A DNA stretch of 60,504 nt from contig DULG01000024.1 in NCBI GenBank assembly GCA_012840485.1, positions 1 to 60,504 of the forward strand, written 5' to 3'. Below, piece after piece: positions 5,411-39,998 of this stretch. The notes beneath the pieces were generated by a model. The model saw nothing but the letters and a program-made list of their open reading frames with translations, searched no databases and was not told the origin of the DNA. This DNA comes from Clostridia bacterium. GTDB taxonomy: Bacteria; Bacillota; Thermoanaerobacteria; Thermoanaerobacterales; Thermoanaerobacteraceae. Position 1 is the stretch's first letter. Every line of letters starts with the position of its first letter. A program made the translations under genes and the position numbers.

Positions 5411-7054
5411 TTATACTTCTATAGCTGATTCACGTAAAATCTTTTCTACCCTTTCTTTTTCAGGTATTATTCTGTGTTTTTCATAGTCATAAGCATAGCA
5501 TGCACCATCTATTAATTTGGTCTGCAATTCTCCTTTTGCATACTTGTTACCCTTGAGATGTGCTGCATCTAATAGACCAATCTTTATCGCTAATGCTAAT
5601 ACGTCTGGATCAGAAAGTGGATCAGGACTGTGAGGCGCTAAACTCTTTATCGCTTCCAATAAAATCCTTGTCTCTTTCTTTAACTGTTCTTTTCTTTGAA
5701 TTACTTCTTTATCCTGAGTCAAATCAGGCATTCCAAACATTGAGTTTTTTATCACGGCTTTTACTATTTTAACGCTTTCAATTATATCTTCTGGCGTTGC
5801 AGCATGATGAGCTTCACAGTAGCCTACCACATGATAGATATGAGGCTTTATAGCCATGGAGAGATAGGCACTGGAAGCCAATTGTCCTTTAGCTTCTAAA
5901 AGGTCGGAAGGGAAACTTGCAAGCCCAGCTCTTGCCTGCCTTATAACTCTGAAATTTTCATCTTGTAATTCTCCTATCAATTCTATCTTAGCTAACATCT
6001 TTGCCAAATCCATTTTTGGTGAAATAGAAGCAGGTACATTAAACATAAACTGAGCTACATAGTCTCTTACTCCCATCTTTTTGGCATTATATGCTGCAAG
6101 ATAAGCCATTGTTACTCCAATTACGTCGTGAGCATCTCTCAAACTCCAATGATGTGCTTCGTTTACTTCTACAGGTACTCCTTTTTCAGCGTGCCATTTC
6201 ATAAGCTGCTGATTTTCTCTTATGGAAGTATTTACATCCCTTGGTCCTCTGCCGTCCAATACATTATACCAGCAAAGGGGAATCGCTGCCCAAGCGTTAT
6301 GGATAGTCTCTAAAAGTATCTCTGCCATCTTGAAAACATCATTTGTACCACTGTAACATCTGAGAAGAGGATAGTTACCTCTTCTTGAAGCCTCATATAT
6401 TCTTATTAAGTCTTCCTTCTTTCTTATAGGAACACCGCCTGCTCCGTCTAAAGATTTGTCATATTTCTTATCAAAGAAGTGCTCTTGAGCATTTTGGTCT
6501 GGTGCTATAGAAATTACATCTAAAACTTCTGCTTCTGCTATCTTCTTAACTCCTTCTATAGTGTCCTCCAATGAAGGAAGCCCAAACTGATGTCTTATTA
6601 TGGGATAAGGAAATTTATCTTCTATTCTTCCGACTAATGTATCAGCAAAAACTCTTTGTCTATTACTTGAATTTCCGCCTCTTAAGAAATTGATTGTCGC
6701 TTCATCTCCTTTTGTACCATCAAAAACCACATCAAAAATTCCTGATTTACGAGCTACCTCTGAAGTAGGTTCTGTACCTCCAAATATCCATTTTATATGT
6801 TTCAAATTATTTACCTCTATTTCTTTTTTTAGCTCTTCTAAGAGTTTTTCAAGAGCTGAAGGAGTTAATCTATAACTTACTCCTACAATTTGCGGTTTAT
6901 GTTCTTTTACAGCTTCTATTAAATTTTTTATAGGAACAGCAGGCCCTAAAAATACAGTTTCATAACCTTGTTGCTCTGCAAACCTCAAAAAGTTATATAC
7001 ACCTGCCACATGAACGCAATTGCCTATCGCTGCAGCTACAACCACCTTTTTCAT
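5411..7054 (-). CDS. B12-dependent mutase, glutamate-mutase-like fusion
   Basis: Residues 1-135 form a cobalamin-binding Rossmann domain. The base-off/His-on signature reads CVHVAG (residues about 13-18) where DxHxxG is usual; the cobalt-ligating His is kept, and IFGGTEP matches the later GG element. Residues about 150-545 resemble the catalytic barrel subunit of glutamate mutase (GlmE): YPLLRCYSGTND, LCWYNVLDGRGPRDV and VNEAHHWSLRDAHD align in order with GlmE blocks. GlmS and GlmE are separate proteins in Clostridium; here they are fused, B12 domain first. The active-site residues differ from GlmE, so glutamate is not assured as substrate. The start overlaps the stop of the opine-dehydrogenase gene by four bases, implying translational coupling and a joint pathway under the c-di-AMP riboswitch. 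Carbon-skeleton mutase chemistry is inferred; the reaction is unknown. Confidence 0.7.
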   Translation of the reverse strand: MKKVVVAAAIGNCVHVAGVYNFLRFAEQQGYETVFLGPAVPIKNLIEAVKEHKPQIVGVSYRLTPSALEKLLEELKKEIEVNNLKHIKWIFGGTEPTSEVARKSGIFDVVFDGTKGDEATINFLRGGNSSNRQRVFADTLVGRIEDKFPYPIIRHQFGLPSLEDTIEGVKKIAEAEVLDVISIAPDQNAQEHFFDKKYDKSLDGAGGVPIRKKEDLIRIYEASRRGNYPLLRCYSGTNDVFKMAEILLETIHNAWAAIPLCWYNVLDGRGPRDVNTSIRENQQLMKWHAEKGVPVEVNEAHHWSLRDAHDVIGVTMAYLAAYNAKKMGVRDYVAQFMFNVPASISPKMDLAKMLAKIELIGELQDENFRVIRQARAGLASFPSDLLEAKGQLASSAYLSMAIKPHIYHVVGYCEAHHAATPEDIIESVKIVKAVIKNSMFGMPDLTQDKEVIQRKEQLKKETRILLEAIKSLAPHSPDPLSDPDVLALAIKIGLLDAAHLKGNKYAKGELQTKLIDGACYAYDYEKHRIIPEKERVEKILRESAIEV

Positions 7055-8151
7055 GCTATCGTTACCTCCTTTCTTTTACCTTCTACCATTTCTACAATTT
7101 CCTCAACAGTCGTTCCTTTTATCCCAAGGTTTTCTGCAGTTCTGCCCATTTTCCAATAATCTCTTCCGTGCATAACAGATGCAAGGTGTATAATAGCATC
7201 AATAGTTGGAGTTTTAATTCCTATTTCTTTTGCTATAGAAGAAATAGGAACTAAACTCATGGGGACGTCTTCAAAAATATACCTGCACTCCAAGGTTTCC
7301 GGTGCTAATAAGCCAACATACGCCTTTGTATTTTGTATTGCTTCATATAAAGTTTCACCTTCTGCATTGTAAGTTTCTTTGAGCCAATCTTTAGCTGAAA
7401 CAGTTTTTACTCCCAACCTCTTAGCCACCATCATTCTCTCATTATCAACCTTTTCTAATATTTTTGCTACTGAAGGAGAAATACCTTCTCTGTAATATTC
7501 GAAAATTCCTTTTGCGGTTTCAATTCTAGCAGCATTTAGAAGGGTTGGCGTCGGATGGAATATCGCTCCAAAATTATTAAAGCTAGTCTCCAACACATTT
7601 TGAGCAGGGACAAACTGAGGAAATGCATTATTTAGAGCTTCTACCAATATTTCTGTTTTTTCTTTAGGTATTGCAGCAACAGACACTACTTCTTTTATTT
7701 TGTATATTTTAGCTCTTCCCATGGAAGACCTGCAGGCGTATATAAAAGTATCTGTTTCTGCAATAACTACATCTAAATCTTCTCTTTTTCTTGTAACATT
7801 ATGAAACTCTAAAGCACCACCAGTTCTCCCAGGGTTTAATATAATTATTTGACCATCCCTAAGATATGGCAACATGTCTTCGGCAATTTTATAATGGGCA
7901 GAAGCAGGAACTACAACTAAAACTATATCAACATCTTTAATAGCTTTCTCCATGTCATCAGTTATCACATTTAACTTGCCAAACCCTTCTACTTCTCCTT
8001 CCAATTCAATTCCACCTTTTTCTATAATAGGAAGTAATTTTTTATAGGTTCTATTGTACAAATTAACTTTATAGCCTTTTAAAGCGAGATGCCCCGCTAT
8101 TGCTTGACCCCCATTCCCAGCTCCAATTACTGCAAAAGAGAGTTGTTTCAT
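7051..8151 (-). CDS. NAD/NADP octopine/nopaline dehydrogenase family protein
   Basis: This 366-residue protein has an N-terminal Rossmann domain (IGAGNGGQAIAGHLALKG) and the opine-dehydrogenase C-terminal helical domain, with NNFGAIFHPTPTLLNA carrying the conserved Asn/His pair. Family members reductively join an amino acid and a 2-oxo acid, or run the reverse oxidation, and are related to 2-dehydropantoate reductases. A pantoate reductase is less likely because of the NPGRTGGALEF and HPxxxLLNA signatures. It is the first gene after the riboswitch and terminator, with AAAGGGGGTAGTAAAA before the ATG, and is coupled to the mutase gene. Its substrate is not deducible. Confidence 0.75.
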   Translation of the reverse strand: MKQLSFAVIGAGNGGQAIAGHLALKGYKVNLYNRTYKKLLPIIEKGGIELEGEVEGFGKLNVITDDMEKAIKDVDIVLVVVPASAHYKIAEDMLPYLRDGQIIILNPGRTGGALEFHNVTRKREDLDVVIAETDTFIYACRSSMGRAKIYKIKEVVSVAAIPKEKTEILVEALNNAFPQFVPAQNVLETSFNNFGAIFHPTPTLLNAARIETAKGIFEYYREGISPSVAKILEKVDNERMMVAKRLGVKTVSAKDWLKETYNAEGETLYEAIQNTKAYVGLLAPETLECRYIFEDVPMSLVPISSIAKEIGIKTPTIDAIIHLASVMHGRDYWKMGRTAENLGIKGTTVEEIVEMVEGKRKEVTIA

Positions 8152-30683: not shown

Positions 30684-32429
30684 TTACTTTACCAAAGGAT
30701 ACAATTCTTTCTTTGAATAATGGGTGTGCAATAGATGATGGGACTTTTCACTCAAAGGATGTTCCAAAAATTCCTCATAAAGTTTTTGTATTGCAAGATT
30801 TTCATGGGACTTCCTTATAGGCAAGTTTTTGTCTATCTCATAGATAGCTTTTGCTCTTAGTTGCTTTACCTTCTCCATCTCATTAGGATTGTGAATTGGT
30901 TGACCTCCTCCCATGATACAACCACCTGGACAACCCATCACCTCTATGAAGTGATACTCTACCTCACCAGCTTTTACTTTATCTAGAAGCTTCTTTGCAT
31001 TTCCTGTACCATTTGCTATAGCAATCTTTATATCCATTTCATCGATTCTTATAGTAGCTTCTCTTACCCCTTCTAAGCCTCTTACTTCTTCAAAATCTAT
31101 TTTGCCAATATCTCTTCCTTCCACAATCTCAGCAACAGTCCTCAAAGCTGCCTCCATGACTCCTCCTGTAGCTCCAAAGATAGCACCTGCACCAGTAGAC
31201 ATTCCAAGAGGCTCGTCAAATTCTTCATCAGGAAGATTTACAAAGTCAATGCCCATTTCTTTTATCATTCTAGCTAATTCTCTAGTGGTAAGGACAGCAT
31301 CCACATCTTTCATGCCATCCCGTATCATCTCTTCTCTTTCAATCTCCAACTTTTTAGCTGTACAAGGCATGATAGATACTACATATATATCCTCTGGATT
31401 AAGTCCCTTCTTTTCTGCAAAATAACTCTTTACTAACGCTCCCATCATCATATGGGGAGACTTACAAGTTGAAAGATTGTCTATAAATTCTGGATAATAC
31501 TTTTCACAAAAAGCTATCCATCCAGGACTGCAGGAAGTTATCATAGGAAGTTTTCCGCCATTTTTTATCCTTCCAAGAAGCTCAGAACCTTCTTCCATTA
31601 TAGTTAAATCTGCAGCAAAATTTGTATCAAATACTGCATCAAACCCCATTCTCCTTAACGCAGCCGCCATTTTCCCTGTGACAATACTTCCTATGGGCAT
31701 GCCAAACTCTTCGCCTAAAGCTACTCTTACAGCCGGTGCTGTTTGTGCCACCACGTATTTTTTCTCGTCCACTAAAGCTTCGTAAACTCTTTTTGTATGG
31801 TCCTTTTCATATATAGCTCCTACAGGACATACCATTATGCACTGACCACAGCTTATACAAGGTGAATCTTTTAAACTTCTCCCAAAAGAAGGTGCCACCA
31901 TTGTTTTAAAGCCTCTATTTACCATTCCAATTGCAAATACATTTTGAACCTCAGAGCATACAGCTACACATCTTCTGCATAATACACACTTATTAGGGTC
32001 CCTCACAACAGCAGGTGAACCGTCATCTATAGGACATTTTATATTTTCTCCTTCAAATCTTATCTCGTCTACTCCCAATCTTTTAGAGAGAGATTGAAGC
32101 TCACAGTTGGTATTTCTAACACAAGTCAAACAACTTCTATCGTGGTTTGAAAGTATAAGCTCAAGATTTAATTTCCGCGCTTCTCTAACTTTAGGTGTAT
32201 TTGTATACACTTTCATACCATCAAATACAGGATAAGTGCAGGAAGTTTGTAAATTTCTTACTCCTTCTATTTCAACCAAGCATATTCTACAAGCACCAAT
32301 TTGGTTAATCTCTTTTAAATAGCACAAAGTAGGAATGTCAATACCTGCTTCTTTTGCCGCTTCCAGCACTGTATAATGGGAAGGTACTTCTACAGTGATG
32401 CCATCTATAGTAACCCGAACTTTGTCCAT
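30684..32429 (-). CDS. hydA: [FeFe] hydrogenase catalytic subunit
   Basis: The H2-forming subunit of an NAD(P)-linked, probably electron-bifurcating hydrogenase. Domains in order: [2Fe-2S] (about 1-80, GACRICLVE), His-Cys cluster (HDRSCLTCVRNTNC), two [4Fe-4S] (CVLCRRCVAVC and CISCGQCIMVCP), then the H-cluster domain with TSCSPGW, MPCTAKK and EVMGCPGGCIMGGG. The first loop reads TSCSP rather than the common TSCCP. The 581-residue length lacks the C-terminal [2Fe-2S] extension of Thermotoga HydA. Together with the next four upstream genes it matches the tetrameric hydrogenase described in Caldanaerobacter tengcongensis. Last gene of the operon. Confidence 0.93.
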   Translation of the reverse strand: MDKVRVTIDGITVEVPSHYTVLEAAKEAGIDIPTLCYLKEINQIGACRICLVEIEGVRNLQTSCTYPVFDGMKVYTNTPKVREARKLNLELILSNHDRSCLTCVRNTNCELQSLSKRLGVDEIRFEGENIKCPIDDGSPAVVRDPNKCVLCRRCVAVCSEVQNVFAIGMVNRGFKTMVAPSFGRSLKDSPCISCGQCIMVCPVGAIYEKDHTKRVYEALVDEKKYVVAQTAPAVRVALGEEFGMPIGSIVTGKMAAALRRMGFDAVFDTNFAADLTIMEEGSELLGRIKNGGKLPMITSCSPGWIAFCEKYYPEFIDNLSTCKSPHMMMGALVKSYFAEKKGLNPEDIYVVSIMPCTAKKLEIEREEMIRDGMKDVDAVLTTRELARMIKEMGIDFVNLPDEEFDEPLGMSTGAGAIFGATGGVMEAALRTVAEIVEGRDIGKIDFEEVRGLEGVREATIRIDEMDIKIAIANGTGNAKKLLDKVKAGEVEYHFIEVMGCPGGCIMGGGQPIHNPNEMEKVKQLRAKAIYEIDKNLPIRKSHENLAIQKLYEEFLEHPLSEKSHHLLHTHYSKKELYPLVK

Positions 32430-32450
32430 CTTTTTACACTCCTTCCTCCA

Positions 32451-34241
32451 TTATTTTTTGTATATTGCACCAAATGGACATTTTTCAATACAAGTACCAC
32501 ACTTAATGCATATGTCTTGGTCAATTACATAAGGTGTCTTTGGCTTACCAGAAATCGCATTTACAGGACAATTCTTAGCACAAATTCCACAAGCCTTACA
32601 TTTCTCTGGATCTATATAGAATCTTAATAAGGCTTGACATACACCAGCCGGGCATCTTTTCTCTTTTATATGCGCCTCGTATTCATCTCTGAAATATCTA
32701 ATTGTAGATAAAACCGGATTTGGTGCTGTCTGCCCAAGTCCACATAAAGCTGTAGCCTTAATAGTTTTTGCAAGTTTTTCTAATTTTTCAATGTCTCCTT
32801 CTTCTCCTTTTCCAGAAGTTATCTTATCTAAAATCTCTAACATCCTTTTTGTACCAATTCTGCAGGGTGCACACTTCCCACAAGATTCGTCAACTGTAAA
32901 TTCGAGGAAGAATTTTGCCATATTAACCATACATGTATCTTCATCCATCACAATAAGTCCACCTGAACCCATCATAGAACCTATATTTATCAAAGAATCA
33001 TAGTCAATTGGAATATCTAAGTGCTCTGCAGGAATACATCCGCCGGAAGGGCCTCCTGTTTGAGCAGCTTTAAATTTCTTCCCGTTGGGTATTCCTCCAC
33101 CTATTTCATATATAATTTCTCTTAAAGTAGTGCCCATTGGCACTTCGATTAATCCTGTATTGTTTACTTTGCCAGTCAATGCAAAAACCTTTGTTCCCTT
33201 TGACTTTTCTGTTCCAATGCTTGAAAACCATTCAGCACCATTTAAGATAATCGGTGGAATATTAGCAAATGTCTCTACGTTATTTATAATCGTTGGTTTA
33301 TCCCACACACCTTTTACAGCAGGGAATGGTGGTCTTGGTCTTGGTTCTCCTCTTCTTCCCATTACTGAATTTAAAAGTGCAGTCTCTTCTCCACAGACAA
33401 AAGCACCTGCACCTAATCTTATCTCAATGTCAAAATCAAAACCTGTCCCAAATATGTTTTTTCCTAAAAGACCATATTCTCTAGCCTGTTCAATAGCAAT
33501 TTTAAGCCTTTTTACTGCCAAAGGATATTCTGCTCTTACGTAAATATAGCCGTGGTTTGCTCCAATTGCATATCCTGCTATCTCCATTGCTTCTAAAACG
33601 CTGTGGGGGTCACCTTCTAATATACTTCTATCCATGAAAGCACCAGGGTCGCCTTCATCAGCATTGCACACCACATATTTAGGAGTTTCTTTTTGTTTGT
33701 AGGCAAACTCCCATTTTACTCCTGTTGGGAATCCTCCACCGCCTCTACCTCTTAATCCAGACTTTTTCACTTCTTCAATTACTTCTTCAGGAGTCATCTG
33801 TGTGAGGACTTTTGCTAAAGCTTTATAACCATCAAAAGCAATTGCCTCTCTTATATCCTCAGGATTTATAATACCGCAATTTCTAAGTGCAATTCTTCTT
33901 TGCTTTCTAAAGAAAGGAGTTTCCTCTAACGGTTTTATAGCTTTTTCTTCTATACTCTCCCCATAAACGTATTTCTTAACAGGTCTTCCCTTTAATAGGT
34001 GCTCTTCCACAATTTCAGGCACATATTCAGGTTTGACTCTGCTATAAAAGATCCCTTCCGGATATACTACAACAACCGGTCCTAATTCACAAAGTCCAAA
34101 ACACCCCGTTCTAACAACCAATACTTCCTTATTCAAACCTGCTTTTTTGATTTCTTCAGTAAAGCGTTCTGCTACTTTGTCAGAATCAGAAGAAGTACAT
34201 CCAGTCCCACCGCATACCATTATGTGTGACCTATACAGCAT
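32451..34241 (-). CDS. hydB: NuoF-like flavin subunit of the hydrogenase
   Basis: This 596-residue subunit binds FMN and NAD(P) and passes electrons to HydA. A thioredoxin-fold [2Fe-2S] domain (about 1-100, [12 protein letters not shown] and [12 protein letters not shown]) is followed by the NuoF core with [19 protein letters not shown] and [16 protein letters not shown]-like sequence ([12 protein letters not shown]), the [14 protein letters not shown] cluster motif, and two C-terminal [4Fe-4S] motifs ([24 protein letters not shown]). GAGGAGGAG precedes the ATG. Confidence 0.94.
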
Positions 34242-34256
34242 TTTATTCTCCTCCTC

Positions 34257-34622
34257 TTATTCGTAATTTTCAATAGTCCATTCTCTGATTGGATGACCAT
34301 TTATAACATGCTCAACAACTATTTGCCTTGCCTTTTTTTCATCAACTTTTACATAGGTAACTTTCTCTTGACCAGGAACATATACGTCCACAATAGGCTC
34401 CAATTTGCACATGCCTATACAACCAGTCTCTGTGACAATCACATCAGTGACATTTCTCTTGCTTAATTCATCCAATATCGCCATCATGACAGGCCTAGCT
34501 CCTGCTGCAATACCACAGGTTGCCATTCCTACAGCTATTCTTATGCCGGTCCTATCTTTTCTCAAATTTATTTTTTCTAAAGTCTCTTTCCTGATTCTTT
34601 CCAACTCCTCTATAGATTTCAT
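34257..34622 (-). CDS. HndB-like thioredoxin-fold ferredoxin subunit
   Basis: This 121-residue protein resembles HndB of the Desulfovibrio NADP-reducing hydrogenase and the fourth subunit of tetrameric clostridial hydrogenases. The pattern is MATCGIAAGARPV followed by ETGCIGMCKLEPIVDVY. Only three Cys are in the cluster region (one, then GCIGMC), whereas a plant-type thioredoxin-like [2Fe-2S] site needs four, so cluster binding is doubtful. ATG 34622 has GGAGGTGTGAAA before it. It lies between the ATPase gene and hydB. Confidence 0.82.
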   Translation of the reverse strand: MKSIEELERIRKETLEKINLRKDRTGIRIAVGMATCGIAAGARPVMMAILDELSKRNVTDVIVTETGCIGMCKLEPIVDVYVPGQEKVTYVKVDEKKARQIVVEHVINGHPIREWTIENYE

Positions 34623-34624
34623 TT

Positions 34625-35158
34625 TCACACCTCCATATTCTCTTTTACATATTCCCTTATCCAATTTAGTACACTTATTTCATTCAAACTGACTTCTTTC
34701 AATACTTTTCTAAATTGTTTTGTATCAAACAAAAACTCATACTCATCTTTTTTGAACCTATACACTATATCTATTTCCGGATCAGACAATATTAAAGAAA
34801 CAATTGTCGATGACATATCTCCTATAGGAATGAGGTCTATGCTTGAAAGCTTAAAAGTCCCTCTTATTTTTGTCCCTTTTCCTTCTTCAGAAAAAATTTC
34901 AAACTTTCCTCCGCACTGTTCAACTAATTCCTTAAAAAAAGGAATTCCAAGCCCTACTTTTCTCTCTTTTCTTGTAGTTACAAAAGGATCTACAACTTTT
35001 TTTAATAATTCCTCATTCATACCACATCCATCATCTTCAATACACACTTTAAGCATATCTTTTGAAGTATCTATATTTATTTCAATATAAATATTCTTTG
35101 CTTCTGCTCTTATGCTGTTTTGCGCTAAATCCAATATATAAAGGGCTAATTCTTTCAT
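34625..35158 (-). CDS. GHKL ATPase domain protein in the hydrogenase operon
   Basis: A 177-residue histidine-kinase-like ATPase without sensor or phosphoacceptor domains. The N box is in ILDLAQNSIRAEA, the G1 box is EDDGCGMN, and the G2 region is KVGLGIPFFKELVEQCGG. The C-terminal 60 residues are of unknown fold. Similar genes sit in hydrogenase operons of many clostridia, between the NuoE-like and HndB-like genes. It may regulate the enzyme or act like an anti-sigma kinase; the target is unknown. ATG 35158 is chosen (MKELALYILDL); a TTG at 35179 is an alternative. Confidence 0.78.
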   Translation of the reverse strand: MKELALYILDLAQNSIRAEAKNIYIEINIDTSKDMLKVCIEDDGCGMNEELLKKVVDPFVTTRKERKVGLGIPFFKELVEQCGGKFEIFSEEGKGTKIRGTFKLSSIDLIPIGDMSSTIVSLILSDPEIDIVYRFKKDEYEFLFDTKQFRKVLKEVSLNEISVLNWIREYVKENMEV

Positions 35159-35171
35159 AGCACTCAAACTC

Positions 35172-35681
35172 TCATTCAAACTTGCTCAATATCTCATCCA
35201 CATCATCAGGAGTCAATCTTCCAAAAACTTCACCATTTATCATCATAACTGGTGCCAACCCACAAGCTCCCAAGCATCTTGTTGGCTCCAAAGAAAACTT
35301 CCCATCAGGAGTTGCCTCTCCTACTTGAATTCCTAATTTTTCTTTAATCTTTTCAAGAACCATAGCAGCCCCTTTTACATAGCAAGCAGTTCCCATACAC
35401 AGATTAATTTTATACTTGCCAGACGGTTTTAAAGTAAATCTCGAATAAAATGTAGCAATTCCAAAAACTTCCGTCAAAGGTACATTCATTTCTTTTGAAA
35501 TATAAAGTTGAACTTCAATAGGAAGATAGCCAAAAATCTCTTGTGCTTGGTTCATGACTGCAATCAAGGAACCTGGCATGCTTTTAAGGTCTTCCAATGC
35601 CTTTTTAAATTTCTCTACTTTTTCTTTTCCAAACTTCTCTATTAATTTTTCCTCCCCTGATTTTTCCATAACTGTTGCCAT
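35172..35681 (-). CDS. hydC: NuoE-like [2Fe-2S] subunit of the hydrogenase
   Basis: A 169-residue NuoE (24 kDa) subunit with the [2Fe-2S] ligands in NLCMGTACYVKGA and TRCLGACGLAPVMMINGE, and VFGIATFYSRFTLKP. It relays electrons between the flavin subunit and ferredoxin-type clusters. ATG 35681 follows AAGGAGGGAAAGAA. First gene of the hydrogenase operon, behind a promoter with a Rex-type operator. Confidence 0.94.
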   Translation of the reverse strand: MATVMEKSGEEKLIEKFGKEKVEKFKKALEDLKSMPGSLIAVMNQAQEIFGYLPIEVQLYISKEMNVPLTEVFGIATFYSRFTLKPSGKYKINLCMGTACYVKGAAMVLEKIKEKLGIQVGEATPDGKFSLEPTRCLGACGLAPVMMINGEVFGRLTPDDVDEILSKFE

Positions 35682-35754
35682 TTCTTTCCCTCCTTGAAAC
35701 AAAAATTTCAGCTTTTCCTTTTTTTATAAAGTTTTTATTCAATTGTTCGTTAAT

Positions 35755-35786
35755 ATTATATCATAACTTTATTAAACTTTTAACAA
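35755..35786 (-). promoter_or_regulatory. Hydrogenase operon promoter with Rex-type operator
   Basis: On the minus strand the 18-mer TTGTTAAAAGTTTAATAA at 35769-35786 matches the Rex consensus TTGTTAA-N4-TTAACAA with one mismatch. TATAAT lies at 35755-35760, so the operator covers the -35 region. Rex leaves such sites when NADH is high, which would switch the H2-forming enzyme on. Binding is inferred. Confidence 0.7.
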
Positions 35787-35846: not shown

Positions 35847-36551
35847 TTAATAACCACAAAGCCAATCTACAACGCTTTTTAATGTAGACTTACAAGGTAG
35901 AAATTCTTCTCTTTCAGAAATATACCCTAAATCGTGTGCATCAGAAGATTTCACAATTCTGTATCTTCTATATTCAGGATATGACTTCAAAAAAATTTCC
36001 GTTCTAATAGCTTTAGACAATTCTATTGTCTTTAAATTTTTTATATCAGGAATAAATCCAAGATTTGAAATAACGCTATAAGACCCCCGATCCAGATGGG
36101 CTAGGACTGCCGCTCCTTTCCCCTCCATTTGATCAAATACTTCTTCAACAGTAAAATTAGTAGAAGCTAACAAAGAATAGTCTACTTCTGTTATGACATT
36201 GTCTTCCTCATTCATTACCAGTTGATTTCCAAAGATTGTACTTTGATTTTTAATTTTTATCATATTTTTGTCAATAAATTCACTAAATTTTATACACTCC
36301 TCCACTGAATAAAAATAACAGAGTATGTGAACCTCTTCTTTTGTCTGCACTTCTATACCTGGGACCACTATTAATCCTTTTTTTGTGCCAAGATTATATA
36401 CAACCTCCACATTTTTTGCGCTGTTGTGGTCTGTTATTCCAATTACGTCAAGCCCTTTTAGTATTGCTATATTAACGATATTATTAGGAGTCATATCATC
36501 GGAAGCACAAGGAGACAAAGCTGTATGAATGTGCAAGTCATAGTAAAGCAT
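35847..36551 (-). CDS. PHP domain phosphoesterase-like protein
   Basis: A 234-residue PHP-fold metal hydrolase with YYDLHIHTALSPCASDD, GITDHNSAKN, VPGIEVQTKEEVHIL and SSDAHDLGYI, covering the expected His/Asp/Glu metal ligands. Relatives act on phosphoester substrates such as nucleotides. It ends the HydS-like module and overlaps the DRTGG gene upstream (TAATG). In Thermotoga a PHP gene also accompanies the sensory hydrogenase gene, from memory. Substrate unknown. Confidence 0.82.
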   Translation of the reverse strand: MLYYDLHIHTALSPCASDDMTPNNIVNIAILKGLDVIGITDHNSAKNVEVVYNLGTKKGLIVVPGIEVQTKEEVHILCYFYSVEECIKFSEFIDKNMIKIKNQSTIFGNQLVMNEEDNVITEVDYSLLASTNFTVEEVFDQMEGKGAAVLAHLDRGSYSVISNLGFIPDIKNLKTIELSKAIRTEIFLKSYPEYRRYRIVKSSDAHDLGYISEREEFLPCKSTLKSVVDWLCGY

Positions 36552-36886
36552 TACTTCATCATCTCGTATAATATTATTGCTGCTTCATAGGAAGTGCCTG
36601 AAAAACTTAATACAGAAATACCTTCTTCATCAGCCCTCTTTTTTGCATCTTCATACAACTTAGCATTTTCAGGTATAATCACACAGCTAAGCTCAGCAAG
36701 TAAAGCCACTGCCACAATATTTATATGAGTCTGAATTGTTATCCAGGCATTTTTTGCCTTGGCGTGGGCCATAACCCAGCTTAAAAGGTCACAAATGTAT
36801 ACTCCTTCAATTTCTTTTTCAATCCCCTTCTCGCCTGCAAGTAATACAAAGCCTTTATCAAGAAGGTCTTTTACTTTTACAGCCAT
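36551..36886 (-). CDS. DRTGG domain protein (first copy)
   Basis: A 111-residue protein made of a single DRTGG-type domain (MAVKVKDLLDKGFVLLAGEK, then YICDLLSWVMAHAKAKNAWI and AELSCVIIPENAKLYEDA). Such domains occur in regulatory proteins and phosphotransacetylases; the ligand is unknown. ATG 36886 follows AGGAGTGAAAAGTTA. A second DRTGG gene lies at 38616-38984, on the other side of the HydS-like gene. Confidence 0.75.
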   Translation of the reverse strand: MAVKVKDLLDKGFVLLAGEKGIEKEIEGVYICDLLSWVMAHAKAKNAWITIQTHINIVAVALLAELSCVIIPENAKLYEDAKKRADEEGISVLSFSGTSYEAAIILYEMMK

Positions 36887-36893
36887 TAACTTT

Positions 36894-38201
36894 TCACTCC
36901 TTCTCTTCCCCCAAAACTGGAGGCATTTTTCCTGCCAATTCATTTAGTTCTTGCGCCAAACTTTTTATTTTGTCTTTTAAGATAAAAATACAATCATATT
37001 CAGTTGCACAACCTTTTACAATATCTTCTGCTAATGCCCTGCAAGTAGGAGAACCACAGGATCCACAATCAAGCCCTGGCAAAGCCTTGTATTGCTGATC
37101 TATTTTCTTCATCATATCCAAAGCCTTTGAAATATCTTTGTCCAGCTTCATAACCTCACTTTTTTCTATTTTCTTCGTCCATCTGACCTCCTCAAAATTG
37201 ATGTCCCTTTCATCAAATAAAGGTTCTTCTCTTTTTGGCAATTTTTCTGTCAATTTCCTTATTCTATTTTTAGCAACAAAATTGTTTTCTACAGTCAAAG
37301 GCCCTCCAATGCATCCTCCTATACAAGCAAGCCCTTCAAAAAAATCCAAATCATTTAACTTTCCCAGCTCAATTTCTTCCAAAACTTTAATAACATTGTG
37401 TATTCCATCTACATAAATACTATTTTCTGTAAAAGTACCAAAAGCCTCTCCTCCAGAATTTGCCCAACCAACACCTACCATAGTAGCCTTGCTTAAATCC
37501 CTCACTATCGTTGTCTTTGCCTTCTCTAAAATTTTCCCATATATTTCTTTCATAGAGAAAGCTCCATCAATCTTTGACTTTTCCAAGCCCACAGGGTTTT
37601 TTATACTTGTGACTTTTGCAGCGCAGGGAGAAATAAAAAACACCCCTATTTCTTCCTCTTTAAGCCCTGTCATTTTCACAGCCTGCTTTTTCGCAAGTAT
37701 TGCTGCAGTATCCATTGGAGAACAAATATCCAGTAGATTATCAATAAGAGAAGGAAATCTAATTTGTATAAGTCTTACAACGGCAGGACAAGCAGAAGAT
37801 ATAACTGGCTTTTTTAGGTTTCCTCTTTTCAGTGCCTCCCGCGTAAATCTGGAAACAATTTCAGCAGCATAAGCCACTTCAAAAACTTCATCAAAGCCTA
37901 TATCCAGCAGAGCACTTAGTATTTGATTAATGCTTAAATCTCTAAATTGTCCATATAAGGAGGGAGCAGGAAGGGCGATTTTGTACTTAAAATCTTTCAT
38001 CATAGCTAAACTATCAGTTACTGCCAATTTAGCATGATAAGGACAAACCCTTATGCATTCACCACAATCTATGCATCTTTCATTTATAATCCTCGCTTTG
38101 CCCTCTCTAACTCTTATTGCTTCTGTAGGGCATCTTTTTATGCAGTTAGTACATCCTCTGCACCTATCTTTATCTAATGTTACCGAATGAAAATAAGGCA
38201 T
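36894..38201 (-). CDS. Putative sensory [FeFe] hydrogenase (HydS-like)
   Basis: A 435-residue iron-only hydrogenase-like protein. Two N-terminal [4Fe-4S] motifs (CRGCTNCIKRCP and CIDCGECIRVCP) are followed by an H-cluster domain with degenerate loops SSACPAV, SPCAAKV and EGLACIGGCIGGP, and a C-terminal Fe-S domain (LDCGSCGSPTCRALAEDI). Ala replaces the proton-relay Cys next to the cluster ligand, as reported for sensory HydS-type enzymes. It has no PAS domain. Neighbours are regulatory (DRTGG, GHKL ATPase, PHP) and the Rex-controlled hydrogenase operon follows. A role in sensing H2 or redox state is inferred. Confidence 0.8.
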   Translation of the reverse strand: MPYFHSVTLDKDRCRGCTNCIKRCPTEAIRVREGKARIINERCIDCGECIRVCPYHAKLAVTDSLAMMKDFKYKIALPAPSLYGQFRDLSINQILSALLDIGFDEVFEVAYAAEIVSRFTREALKRGNLKKPVISSACPAVVRLIQIRFPSLIDNLLDICSPMDTAAILAKKQAVKMTGLKEEEIGVFFISPCAAKVTSIKNPVGLEKSKIDGAFSMKEIYGKILEKAKTTIVRDLSKATMVGVGWANSGGEAFGTFTENSIYVDGIHNVIKVLEEIELGKLNDLDFFEGLACIGGCIGGPLTVENNFVAKNRIRKLTEKLPKREEPLFDERDINFEEVRWTKKIEKSEVMKLDKDISKALDMMKKIDQQYKALPGLDCGSCGSPTCRALAEDIVKGCATEYDCIFILKDKIKSLAQELNELAGKMPPVLGEEKE

Positions 38202-38209
38202 TTTATCAC

Positions 38210-38629
38210 CTACTTAAACAAAATTTCCATTAAAACAGTTGTTCCCTCACTACTGCTTTTTATTTCCATAAAATCAGAATTTGACTTCATATTTGGAAGT
38301 CCCATTCCAGCTCCAAATCCCATCTCCCTGATTTCCTCCGGTGCTGTAGAATAACCTTCTTTCATCGCAAGTTCAATATCTTCTATTCCAGGACCTGTAT
38401 CCTCCGCCGTAATTCTTATTTTATCTTCAAAAATTTCTATCTTTATATGGCCTCCATAGGAATGAATTATAATATTCATCTCTGCTTCATAACAAGCTAT
38501 GCAACTTCTCCTCACAACATCGGGATTTAAAGAAAGCTGCTTTAAAACCGTTCTTAAATTGCTGGAGACTTCTCCCGCAGAGTCAAAATCCCTTGCTTTT
38601 ACATTAAAATCTAAGCTATAAAGTACCAT
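38210..38629 (-). CDS. Anti-sigma-factor-like GHKL ATPase
   Basis: A 139-residue serine/threonine-kinase-type ATPase of the SpoIIAB/RsbW fold: YEAEMNIIIHSYGGHI (N box), TAEDTGPGIEDIELAMKEG (G1) and GFGAGMGLPNMKSNSD (G2). ATG 38629 overlaps the end of the DRTGG gene by 14 bases. Such proteins phosphorylate or bind partner proteins; in this module a link to HydS is likely but unproven. Confidence 0.78.
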   Translation of the reverse strand: MVLYSLDFNVKARDFDSAGEVSSNLRTVLKQLSLNPDVVRRSCIACYEAEMNIIIHSYGGHIKIEIFEDKIRITAEDTGPGIEDIELAMKEGYSTAPEEIREMGFGAGMGLPNMKSNSDFMEIKSSSEGTTVLMEILFK

Positions 38630-38984
38630 TTCCTTCACCACTTCTGCAAGTAAGCCCATTGGAGTACAAAAGTCCACAAGCAATATAAAGGGGATATTTT
38701 GTCTTCATTATTACAAGTCCTGCTTTTTTAGCTAGCTGTACTATTTCTTCCCCCGGGGTTTTACCCCTAACAAACACTATACATTTTATATCTCCCACTA
38801 CTTCCGCAGTTCTTATCACCTGAACATTTGTAAGTCCAGTCAAAAGCACAGCCTTTTCATCTTTGGAAGCCAGCACATCACTCATCAAATCTGCTCCGCA
38901 TGCAGTAAACACATCTTCATTTAATTTTTCTTCTCCCACCATAACCTCTGCCTTTAAAATTTCTTTAACTTCTTTTAATTTCAT
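38616..38984 (-). CDS. DRTGG domain protein (second copy)
   Basis: A 122-residue DRTGG-type domain protein (MKLKEVKEILKAEVMVGEEK, TACGADLMSDVLASKDEKAV, KCIVFVRGKTPGEEIVQLAK). It differs clearly from the copy at 36551-36886 but has the same length class. GAGGTGTAATATT precedes the ATG. Confidence 0.78.
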   Translation of the reverse strand: MKLKEVKEILKAEVMVGEEKLNEDVFTACGADLMSDVLASKDEKAVLLTGLTNVQVIRTAEVVGDIKCIVFVRGKTPGEEIVQLAKKAGLVIMKTKYPLYIACGLLYSNGLTCRSGEGNGTL

Positions 38985-38998
38985 AATATTACACCTCA

Positions 38999-39775
38999 TT
39001 ACTGATTTTGTATAGCAATTATTTTCAAAAAATCATTGTACTCCTCACAAGACTGCCATAGAAGTTGTTGTAGTAAGCTAAAAGTACTTTTGTCCTGCAA
39101 TGCAGCTGATATTTCAATTTTTTTAATATCTGTTGCCATTTTGTTAACAATGTCTGTGACTTTTCCTTTTATCTTGCTTACTTTTTCTTCATTAAAATTT
39201 CCGCTATTATTATCTAAAAAATTTTCTATTCTTGCTTTTAATTCACCTAGTTCCTTTTCCTCTATTGTTTTGTCATTAAAAGCCTTATAGGAAATAGCAG
39301 ACATATATTCACATATCTGTCTAAAATCGTGCAATTTATTTATAAAATCATCCATTTCTGATGTTAATTTCTTGTCATATCCAATTTTTATAGAAGGCCC
39401 TTTTTTCACAGACACTTCACTAAAAATGCCACTGGCTTCTAAAGAGGAAGAACACAAAGTAGCTTGCTCCTTATCTAAAAATACTCCTCCTATCAGCAAA
39501 TATTTGTCAGAATCTTTACTTATAAAAGAATAAATCCCTTTCACCCTCATCAAATCTTCATGGTATTTTACAGTCTCAAAGTCAGAATAGCTAGACAAAA
39601 CAACTTCAAATAAATCAATCCCTTTAACAGTTACTTCTTTGAAATTCGCGCTATCTTTGGGCTTTGGAAGATTAGGTTCTACAATGTCTCTAGAAATAAA
39701 ATATCCAACTAGAAGAGAAACAAAAGGGATTATCAACATTACAATTAAAACTTCTAGAATCCTTTCGTTTTTCAT
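38999..39775 (-). CDS. Membrane-anchored protein with SPOR-like region
   Basis: I do not recognise this 258-residue protein with certainty. A membrane segment (about 8-28) is followed by a region at about 50-120 resembling a SPOR domain (YLLIGGVFLDKEQATLCSSS) and a helical C-terminus. It is the first gene of the HydS module, 14 bases before the DRTGG gene. The start at 39775 has AAGGA upstream; the GTG at 39808 lies at the expected transcription start given TATAAT at 39814-39819. Confidence 0.55.
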   Translation of the reverse strand: MKNERILEVLIVMLIIPFVSLLVGYFISRDIVEPNLPKPKDSANFKEVTVKGIDLFEVVLSSYSDFETVKYHEDLMRVKGIYSFISKDSDKYLLIGGVFLDKEQATLCSSSLEASGIFSEVSVKKGPSIKIGYDKKLTSEMDDFINKLHDFRQICEYMSAISYKAFNDKTIEEKELGELKARIENFLDNNSGNFNEEKVSKIKGKVTDIVNKMATDIKKIEISAALQDKSTFSLLQQLLWQSCEEYNDFLKIIAIQNQ

Positions 39776-39998
39776 CTTTCTATCAATCCTTACTATTAAA
39801 TCTTTCACTTTATATTATACTATACTATCAAAAAAAATCCTTTAAAAATTTTTTATAGGACTTTTTTACTAATTTTTAATTTCAAAAGAGGTTTTTGAAG
39901 AATTCTGTCGAATTATATATTATATGAGGTAAAAACAGTTGAAAATAATAATGCAACAAGATATAACTTTAACTAGGTGATAATAGATATTACTAAGT

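Follow-up and report, generated by a model that had tools for sequence, protein, structure and literature searches.

A conserved gene module around a putative sensory [FeFe]-hydrogenase of group D in Clostridia

The locus

The stretch of DNA analysed here, hereafter the window, is one contig of 60,504 nucleotides (DULG01000024.1) of the 2.65 Mb genome, of Thermoanaerobacter type, of a Clostridia bacterium of the Thermoanaerobacteraceae (assembly GCA_012840485.1), and it carries on its minus strand a closely packed set of genes around HydS, a putative sensory [FeFe]-hydrogenase of group D. The genes run in the order SPOR-like protein, DRTGG1, SpoIIAB/RsbW-type ATPase, HydS, DRTGG2 and PHP protein, and are followed, after a gap of 145 bases, by the operon of a bifurcating hydrogenase (hyd) in the order NuoE-like protein, GHKL ATPase, 2Fe-2S protein, NuoF-like protein and HydA (Table 1). 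An earlier note on this DNA had described the first six open reading frames (ORFs) as a sensory-hydrogenase module with a further free-standing GHKL ATPase inside the hyd operon; the six are present in that order, and the GHKL gene lies where it was described. Relatives suggest that translation starts inside the ORFs, at 38984 for DRTGG1, at 38629 for the ATPase and at 36886 for DRTGG2. The tight packing that the note had seen stands, but DRTGG2 most likely does not overlap HydS, since the likely Met at 36886 places it a few bases after HydS; the SPOR-like gene, for which a start at 39775 had been given, most likely begins instead at a GTG at 39808.

Table 1. Genes and candidate sites at the HydS locus, with positions in the window
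Feature	Position	Strand	Basis
SPOR-domain protein, optional member	38999..39808	-	AlphaFold model, PDB fold matches
DRTGG1, small DRTGG-domain protein	38616..38984 (ORF 38616-38999)	-	Pfam DRTGG
SpoIIAB/RsbW-type GHKL ATPase, probable Ser/Thr kinase (predicted)	38210..38629 (ORF 38210-38683)	-	NCBIfam, PDB
HydS, group D (M2e) putative sensory [FeFe]-hydrogenase	36894..38201	-	Pfam/NCBIfam, pocket residues
DRTGG2, second DRTGG-fold protein	36551..36886 (ORF 36551-36943)	-	AlphaFold model, PDB matches
PHP-domain phosphoesterase family, module-specific	35847..36551	-	Pfam PHP, metal ligands
Candidate Rex-like operator	35769..35786	-	1 mismatch to TTGTTAA-N4-TTAACAA
NuoE/HydC-like subunit, first hyd operon gene	35172..35702	-	Pfam 2Fe-2S_thioredx 1.4e-50
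Free-standing GHKL ATPase in hyd operon, assigned to module	34625..35179	-	HATPase_c 1.8e-18
2Fe-2S protein, NuoF-like, HydA (group A, NADH-dependent type)	30684..34664	-	NF040763 941.6 bits for HydA

Conservation of the module

Conservation was followed in two samples: 80 named loci chosen by HydS identity, which with the window make 81, and 259 genomes spread evenly over the phylum; L-numbers denote loci and G-numbers genomes. Across Clostridia the order DRTGG1-ATPase-HydS-DRTGG2-PHP is nearly constant in the 81 loci, with the ATPase present in 80, DRTGG1 in 77, DRTGG2 in 74 and PHP in 73, and with median gaps along this series of -8, 22, 6 and 1 nucleotides. The sole locus without the ATPase (L041) ends at a contig end, and every locus with upstream sequence possesses it. 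The SPOR-like gene, which ends about 14 nucleotides ahead of DRTGG1, occurs in 13 of the 81 loci; thus, of the six genes proposed, five form the core of the module and the SPOR-like gene is an optional rather than a full member.

The genome sample agrees with the loci. HydS is present in 110 of the 259 genomes and the ATPase family in 114, with 109 genomes common to both; PHP is present in 106, of which 103 also carry HydS; and the ATPase adjoins 108 of the 115 HydS genes. Fisher p-values for co-occurrence range from about 1e-57 to 1e-66, although these overstate the evidence because the genomes are related. Matches to the ATPase family fall into two groups, members ending near 1e-49 and the next matches starting near 1e-19, and in the similarly bimodal PHP family the single match weaker than 1e-45 is a contig-end fragment. 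Because of this bimodal distribution, both families are considered specific to the module. A chance packing of genes is ruled out by the recurrence of the same order in the 80 named loci and in the unbiased genome sample, and the gene-neighbourhood survey that the earlier note had proposed as a check finds the neighbours conserved with HydS.

A few loci depart from this arrangement. In G018, a genome of the same genus, an insertion containing a long minus-strand ORF that resembles a transposase separates HydS from DRTGG2 (L164:5060-6406); DRTGG2 and PHP are intact past the insertion, as are the remaining module genes. There are two HydS genes of group D in each of four genomes of one family (G063, G193, G216 and G239), and at least one of the two has no adjoining ATPase. 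At L066 (11401-13314), directly downstream of a group D ATPase-HydS pair that lacks DRTGG and PHP, an [FeFe]-hydrogenase-like sequence and an MCP chemotaxis signalling domain are joined in one protein, a genuine fusion of which this is the single instance seen. A histidine kinase and response regulator pair near L066 and L091 was considered as a partner and set aside, both loci being without DRTGG and PHP and the pattern not recurring.

HydS and its pocket

In Pfam and NCBIfam searches HydS consists of an [FeFe]-hydrogenase H-domain with two N-terminal iron-sulphur (FeS) motifs, both of the 4Fe-4S kind, and one C-terminal FeS motif, the layout of group D (M2e). The C-terminal motif, Cx2Cx4Cx16C, stands without a PAS domain, and its four cysteines (C379, C382, C387 and C404) are invariant in an alignment of ten. 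The degenerate H-cluster pocket that the earlier note had read from the sequence is confirmed by three replacements, whereby A137 takes the place of the proton-path Cys (C299), S191 that of Met353 and L291 that of Met497, each invariant in the HydS of ten aligned relatives. The same Ala/Ser/Leu pocket marks have been published for TamHydS of Thermoanaerobacter mathranii (PMC8163306), and the window HydS, which is 91% identical to that of a genome of the same genus (G017), is an ortholog of this protein and thus of an enzyme already proposed as sensory.

Group D enzymes were put among the sensory hydrogenases in a 2012 survey on the strength of their proximity to kinases and bifurcating hydrogenases (PMC3561251). 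The in vitro activity of TamHydS is low (PMC8163306), and work from 2026 reports that H2 does not reduce its C-terminal cluster and that its secondary structure shifts with H2 independently of that cluster (PMC13104023). The reading of the locus as a sensory-hydrogenase module is supported, but both the sensory class and the siting near kinases and HydABC had already been published (PMC3561251, PMC8163306).

The genes flanking TamHydS were named in 2020 as an ATPase and an AraC regulator (PMC8163306). An AraC regulator was found as a neighbour of HydS neither here nor in relatives; the flanking genes encode the ATPase and DRTGG2, which has an alpha/beta fold, and no AraC-type or other helix-turn-helix (HTH) match was obtained in DRTGG1 or DRTGG2 of the window, L038 or L040. 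The published AraC label is presumably an annotation given to DRTGG2.

The partner proteins

The ATPase matches HATPase_c_2/SpoIIAB in Pfam (8e-10) and spIIAB in NCBIfam (2.5e-15), and its PDB match is an anti-sigma F factor. In alignment its N-box, E66-x3-N70, falls on positions 46 and 50 of the SpoIIAB chain, of which E46 is the catalytic base. The motifs DxGPGI and GFGAGMGL are invariant and the catalytic Glu is kept in 99%, such that all the motifs of SpoIIAB/RsbW kinases (N-box Glu and Asn, DxGxG and GxGxGL) are present. Because the catalytic Glu and the ATP lid have been kept, the protein is predicted to be, probably, a Ser/Thr kinase.

Both of the small proteins that the earlier note had taken for two different DRTGG proteins have Pfam DRTGG matches, that of DRTGG1 above the gathering score (29.3 bits, 7.8e-7) and that of DRTGG2 just under it (24.8 bits, 3.2e-5). 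The DRTGG fold of DRTGG2, modelled by AlphaFold with a predicted local distance difference test score (pLDDT) of 97.8, is confirmed by PDB matches, the best being the CBS-DRTGG pyrophosphatase of C. perfringens, HPr kinase and the DRTGG protein AF1212. Invariant residues of DRTGG1 are D37, S40, D41, R63, D70, R78 and K80, with T54 also conserved, and conserved residues of DRTGG2 are D52, S55, T69 and N75; S40 and S55 are given in ORF numbering. Long DRTGG1 proteins at L077 and L114 were rejected as fusions, their start codons having been placed too early.

The PHP protein, also as claimed, matches Pfam PHP at 5e-8, and its metal ligands (H7, H9, H42, E67, H75, H152, D204 and H206) are kept at 99% or above in 73 relatives; no equivalog model scored above its cut-off that would name a substrate. 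The membrane-anchored SPOR-like protein of the note is borne out by an N-terminal transmembrane helix followed by a SPOR fold and a C-terminal helical bundle. Although Pfam misses the SPOR domain here, the best PDB folds of the AlphaFold model (pLDDT 84) are the SPOR domains of CwlC (1x60), DamX (2lfv) and FtsN (1uta), and a relative at L154 has a Pfam SPOR match of 4.9e-16.

Transcription of the hyd operon

The gap between PHP and the NuoE-like gene contains the Rex-like box of Table 1, which overlaps the -35 element of a promoter-like sequence for the hyd operon, TTAAAA-17-TATAAT; the promoter and terminator scan yielded nothing useful apart from this overlap. Loose matches to the Rex box over the whole window are no more frequent than chance, and support for the site comes from its position and conservation. 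A Rex-like box with 0-2 mismatches is found in the same gap in about 11 of 37 relatives, in each of which at most one of 60 shuffles did equally well, and another six loci carry such a box ahead of the module. The genome encodes Rex, and the five-gene hyd operon of C. bescii is a Rex target with gel-shift support (PMC6391272). No terminator-like site was found between PHP and NuoE on the minus strand, and read-through from the module is therefore possible. Rex probably governs hyd transcription independently of the module, which itself may act after transcription. The earlier note had found neither a response regulator nor a DNA-binding protein in the module; indeed neither a response regulator nor an HTH protein lies inside it, but the absence of any DNA-binding output is softened by the Rex-like operator. 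Two-component signalling is excluded by the lack of a HisKA/DHp or receiver domain in any module protein.

Fusions, exchanged inputs and reduced modules

Module genes have become fused in several combinations: DRTGG1 with the ATPase in G202, G225, G151, G268 and G233, which belong to three families, the ATPase with HydS in G254, and PHP with GHKL in G057, G135, G163, G211 and G234. The genomes with the PHP-GHKL fusion possess a divergent hyd operon in which NuoE is directly followed by the 2Fe-2S gene, and over the portion of the operon that was read none of the five shows a GHKL gene apart from the fusion. Because of these fusions, and because GHKL is retained in modules that lack HydS, the GHKL ATPase of the hyd operon appears to belong functionally to the module and behaves like one of its members, not like a subunit of the hydrogenase.

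Modules that lack HydS include those of G153 and G180, which keep DRTGG1, the ATPase, DRTGG2, PHP and GHKL; that of G186, which keeps DRTGG1, the ATPase, DRTGG2 and GHKL; and that of G055, with the same set as G186 except that DRTGG1 was not detected as an ORF. CBS domains are present at the N-terminus of the ATPase in G153, G180 and G288, and G082 looks alike by eye; such a CBS-ATPase could provide another route by which an energy or redox ligand is fed into the same ATPase. The module adjoins RnfC in a second locus of G153, in G082 and in G203, and all five genomes with the ATPase gene but no HydS possess group A hydrogenases. Thus HydS appears to be one swappable input to a more general core, whose neighbours have ferredoxin/NAD(H) exchange as their common theme. 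At L125 and L126 (G055 and G186) a TPR protein comes after the ATPase, DRTGG2 and a shortened GHKL, and the distance from this reduced core to a group A hydrogenase gene is about 6-7 kb. L127 (G079) has a DRTGG1-ATPase pair and no detected HydS, with genes for a Rex-like repressor and for a multihaem cytochrome nearby, as judged by eye.

A proposed mechanism and its alternatives

Because the genes are inherited together and are recurrently fused (DRTGG1-ATPase, ATPase-HydS and PHP-GHKL), the module proteins most likely work as one assembly, and that the module represents one conserved regulatory complex is held with high confidence. This complex probably acts on enzymes of the HydABC/Rnf type, its likely target in the window being the hydrogenase of 2Fe-2S, NuoF-like and HydA proteins. 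A6-type hydrogenases are encoded by 187 of the 259 genomes, 86 of them without HydS; therefore the module is an optional regulator and not a subunit or an obligatory maturase.

The reading preferred here, to which slightly less than an even chance is given, is a HydS-gated ATPase signalling complex that would tune ferredoxin/NAD(H) enzymes, HydABC in this genome and Rnf in some relatives. H2 or low potential would alter the conformation of HydS, which would alter the activity of the SpoIIAB-type ATPase; the ATPase would act on the DRTGG proteins, serving as substrate or adaptor in place of the missing STAS domain; PHP, with its metal site intact, would reverse the mark or remove a nucleotide ligand; and the GHKL protein would relay the state to the hydrogenase. 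We infer, with the earlier note, a complete signalling chain. That the predicted activities of kinase, DRTGG and PHP proteins make up a phospho-switch is a tentative proposal. Somewhat more doubtful is its most explicit form, a partner-switch free of STAS whereby a hydrogenase-derived sensor directly gates a SpoIIAB-type kinase, with DRTGG proteins as phospho-acceptors, PHP opposing, and HydABC or Rnf acted upon by the second GHKL protein.

Several observations weigh against this reading. In some loci (L050, L052, L053 and others) HydS lies apart from the bifurcating hydrogenase, and nine genomes with HydS lack an A6-type hydrogenase at the cut-off used. The PHP-GHKL fusions all belong to one family, and the ATPase-HydS fusion to one genome. 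A look through the literature turned up no biochemical work on the ATPase, DRTGG, PHP or GHKL proteins, and the invariant Ser and Thr residues of the DRTGG proteins are as compatible with a ligand pocket as with phospho-sites.

A ligand pocket is what would be expected if the module sensed nucleotides, with DRTGG and, in some lineages, CBS domains binding adenine nucleotides or alarmones, PHP hydrolysing a nucleotide, and the ATPase forming a nucleotide-gated conformational switch devoid of kinase activity. The closest solved fold to DRTGG2 is the CBS-DRTGG regulatory region of the C. perfringens pyrophosphatase, a family whose activity is controlled by AMP, ADP and diadenosine polyphosphates (PMC11172384); the CBS-ATPase fusions point the same way, and the weak matches of PHP include nucleoside bisphosphate phosphatase and RNase families. 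However, the literal DRTGG motif is degenerate here, and the SpoIIAB-type catalytic Glu would be superfluous for pure nucleotide sensing, leaving this explanation unlikely, though the best of the alternatives.

The resemblance of the ATPase to SpoIIAB, its best NCBIfam and PDB match, invites a second explanation, in which a paralog of RsbW/SpoIIAB engages in classical anti-sigma/anti-anti-sigma switching with a STAS protein and a sigma factor encoded elsewhere, and the SpoIIE-type PP2C phosphatase that follows a group C HydS-PAS gene in the same genome would be the natural opponent of such a kinase. Partner switching requires a STAS protein. The genome encodes a single one, which is SpoIIAA-like and lies beside the only other SpoIIAB-like gene; moreover, two carriers of the module, the isolate Coprothermobacter platensis (G037, 1.4 Mb) and the metagenome-assembled genome (MAG) G043, gave no STAS match in a search that detected STAS in the 20 remaining carriers examined as well as in 10 control genomes. 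The RsbW-like character of the ATPase thus stands as a family match and not as an implication of RsbW-STAS switching, which these STAS-free carriers rule out as a required mechanism. Nor was a cognate sigma factor gene found in the window operon, and among the genes that recur nearby none was noticed that encodes a sigma factor or a STAS protein; in G037 no SigBFG protein passes the curated cut-off, sigma-like proteins below it being present. Switching of the classical kind is accordingly improbable, although an unaided anti-sigma role, by direct binding of another sigma factor, is possible.

Equally improbable is an assembly or repair machine, in which two GHKL ATPases with DRTGG and PHP proteins would mature, protect or dismantle the FeS centres of hydrogenase or Rnf, HydS being a scaffold or check-point. 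GHKL proteins do include chaperone-like ATPases, and some genomes from which HydS has been lost still have the core genes close to those of HydA or Rnf, but the many A6-type hydrogenases in genomes devoid of HydS argue against it, as do the conserved redox-active H-cluster pocket of group D HydS and the response of TamHydS to H2 (PMC13104023). Ordinary operon clustering, in which Rex would co-regulate redox genes that have no mechanism in common, would account for the Rex-like boxes in the PHP-nuoE gap and, in some relatives, upstream of the module, but is made very improbable by the fusions, by the order kept when the module lies apart from hyd, and by its retention without HydS.

Significance

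The module is genuine and strongly conserved, has been little described, and surrounds a putative sensor that was already known; with the corrections given above, the main idea of the earlier note holds. Beyond HydS, the full module seems undescribed in the open literature, where a full-text search for DRTGG together with hydrogenase found nothing related. A defined, co-inherited and partly fused set of partners makes the route of the H2 signal from group D (and C) hydrogenases directly testable, and points to a layer of control beyond Rex on HydABC and Rnf, which help set the yields of H2, ethanol and acetate in anaerobic Clostridia. If true, the STAS-free partner-switch would represent a Ser/Thr signalling architecture general to anaerobes, able to accept either HydS or CBS sensors as its input.

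Comparison with known systems

The window HydS is a genus-level ortholog of TamHydS, with which it shares the M2e domain layout, the Ala/Ser/Leu pocket and a placement upstream of HydABC adjoining an ATPase; the TamHydS papers treat HydS alone, and the full set of DRTGG, PHP and GHKL genes is absent from the 2020 account. With SpoIIAB/RsbW kinases the module has in common the ATPase fold, the N-box Glu and Asn and the ATP lid motifs, but it differs from them in having no STAS partner or sigma factor nearby. The DRTGG fold is shared with the CBS-DRTGG pyrophosphatase and the N-domain of HPr kinase, whereas the DRTGG proteins of the module stand alone, have a degenerate motif and are tied to an ATPase.

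The same genome also offers a comparison in the group C HydS (HfsB/HydS), likewise a putative H2 sensor with an altered pocket, a C-terminal FeS motif and an adjoining enzyme of protein phosphorylation. Its gene, which encodes a PAS domain (L141, 7690-9435, contig C61), is directly followed by that of the SpoIIE-type PP2C phosphatase (6515-7693), whereas group D has no PAS domain and is accompanied by a SpoIIAB-type ATPase, two DRTGG proteins and PHP. That group C should be served by a phosphatase and group D by a kinase-like ATPase, opposing enzymes of one known chemistry, is suggestive.

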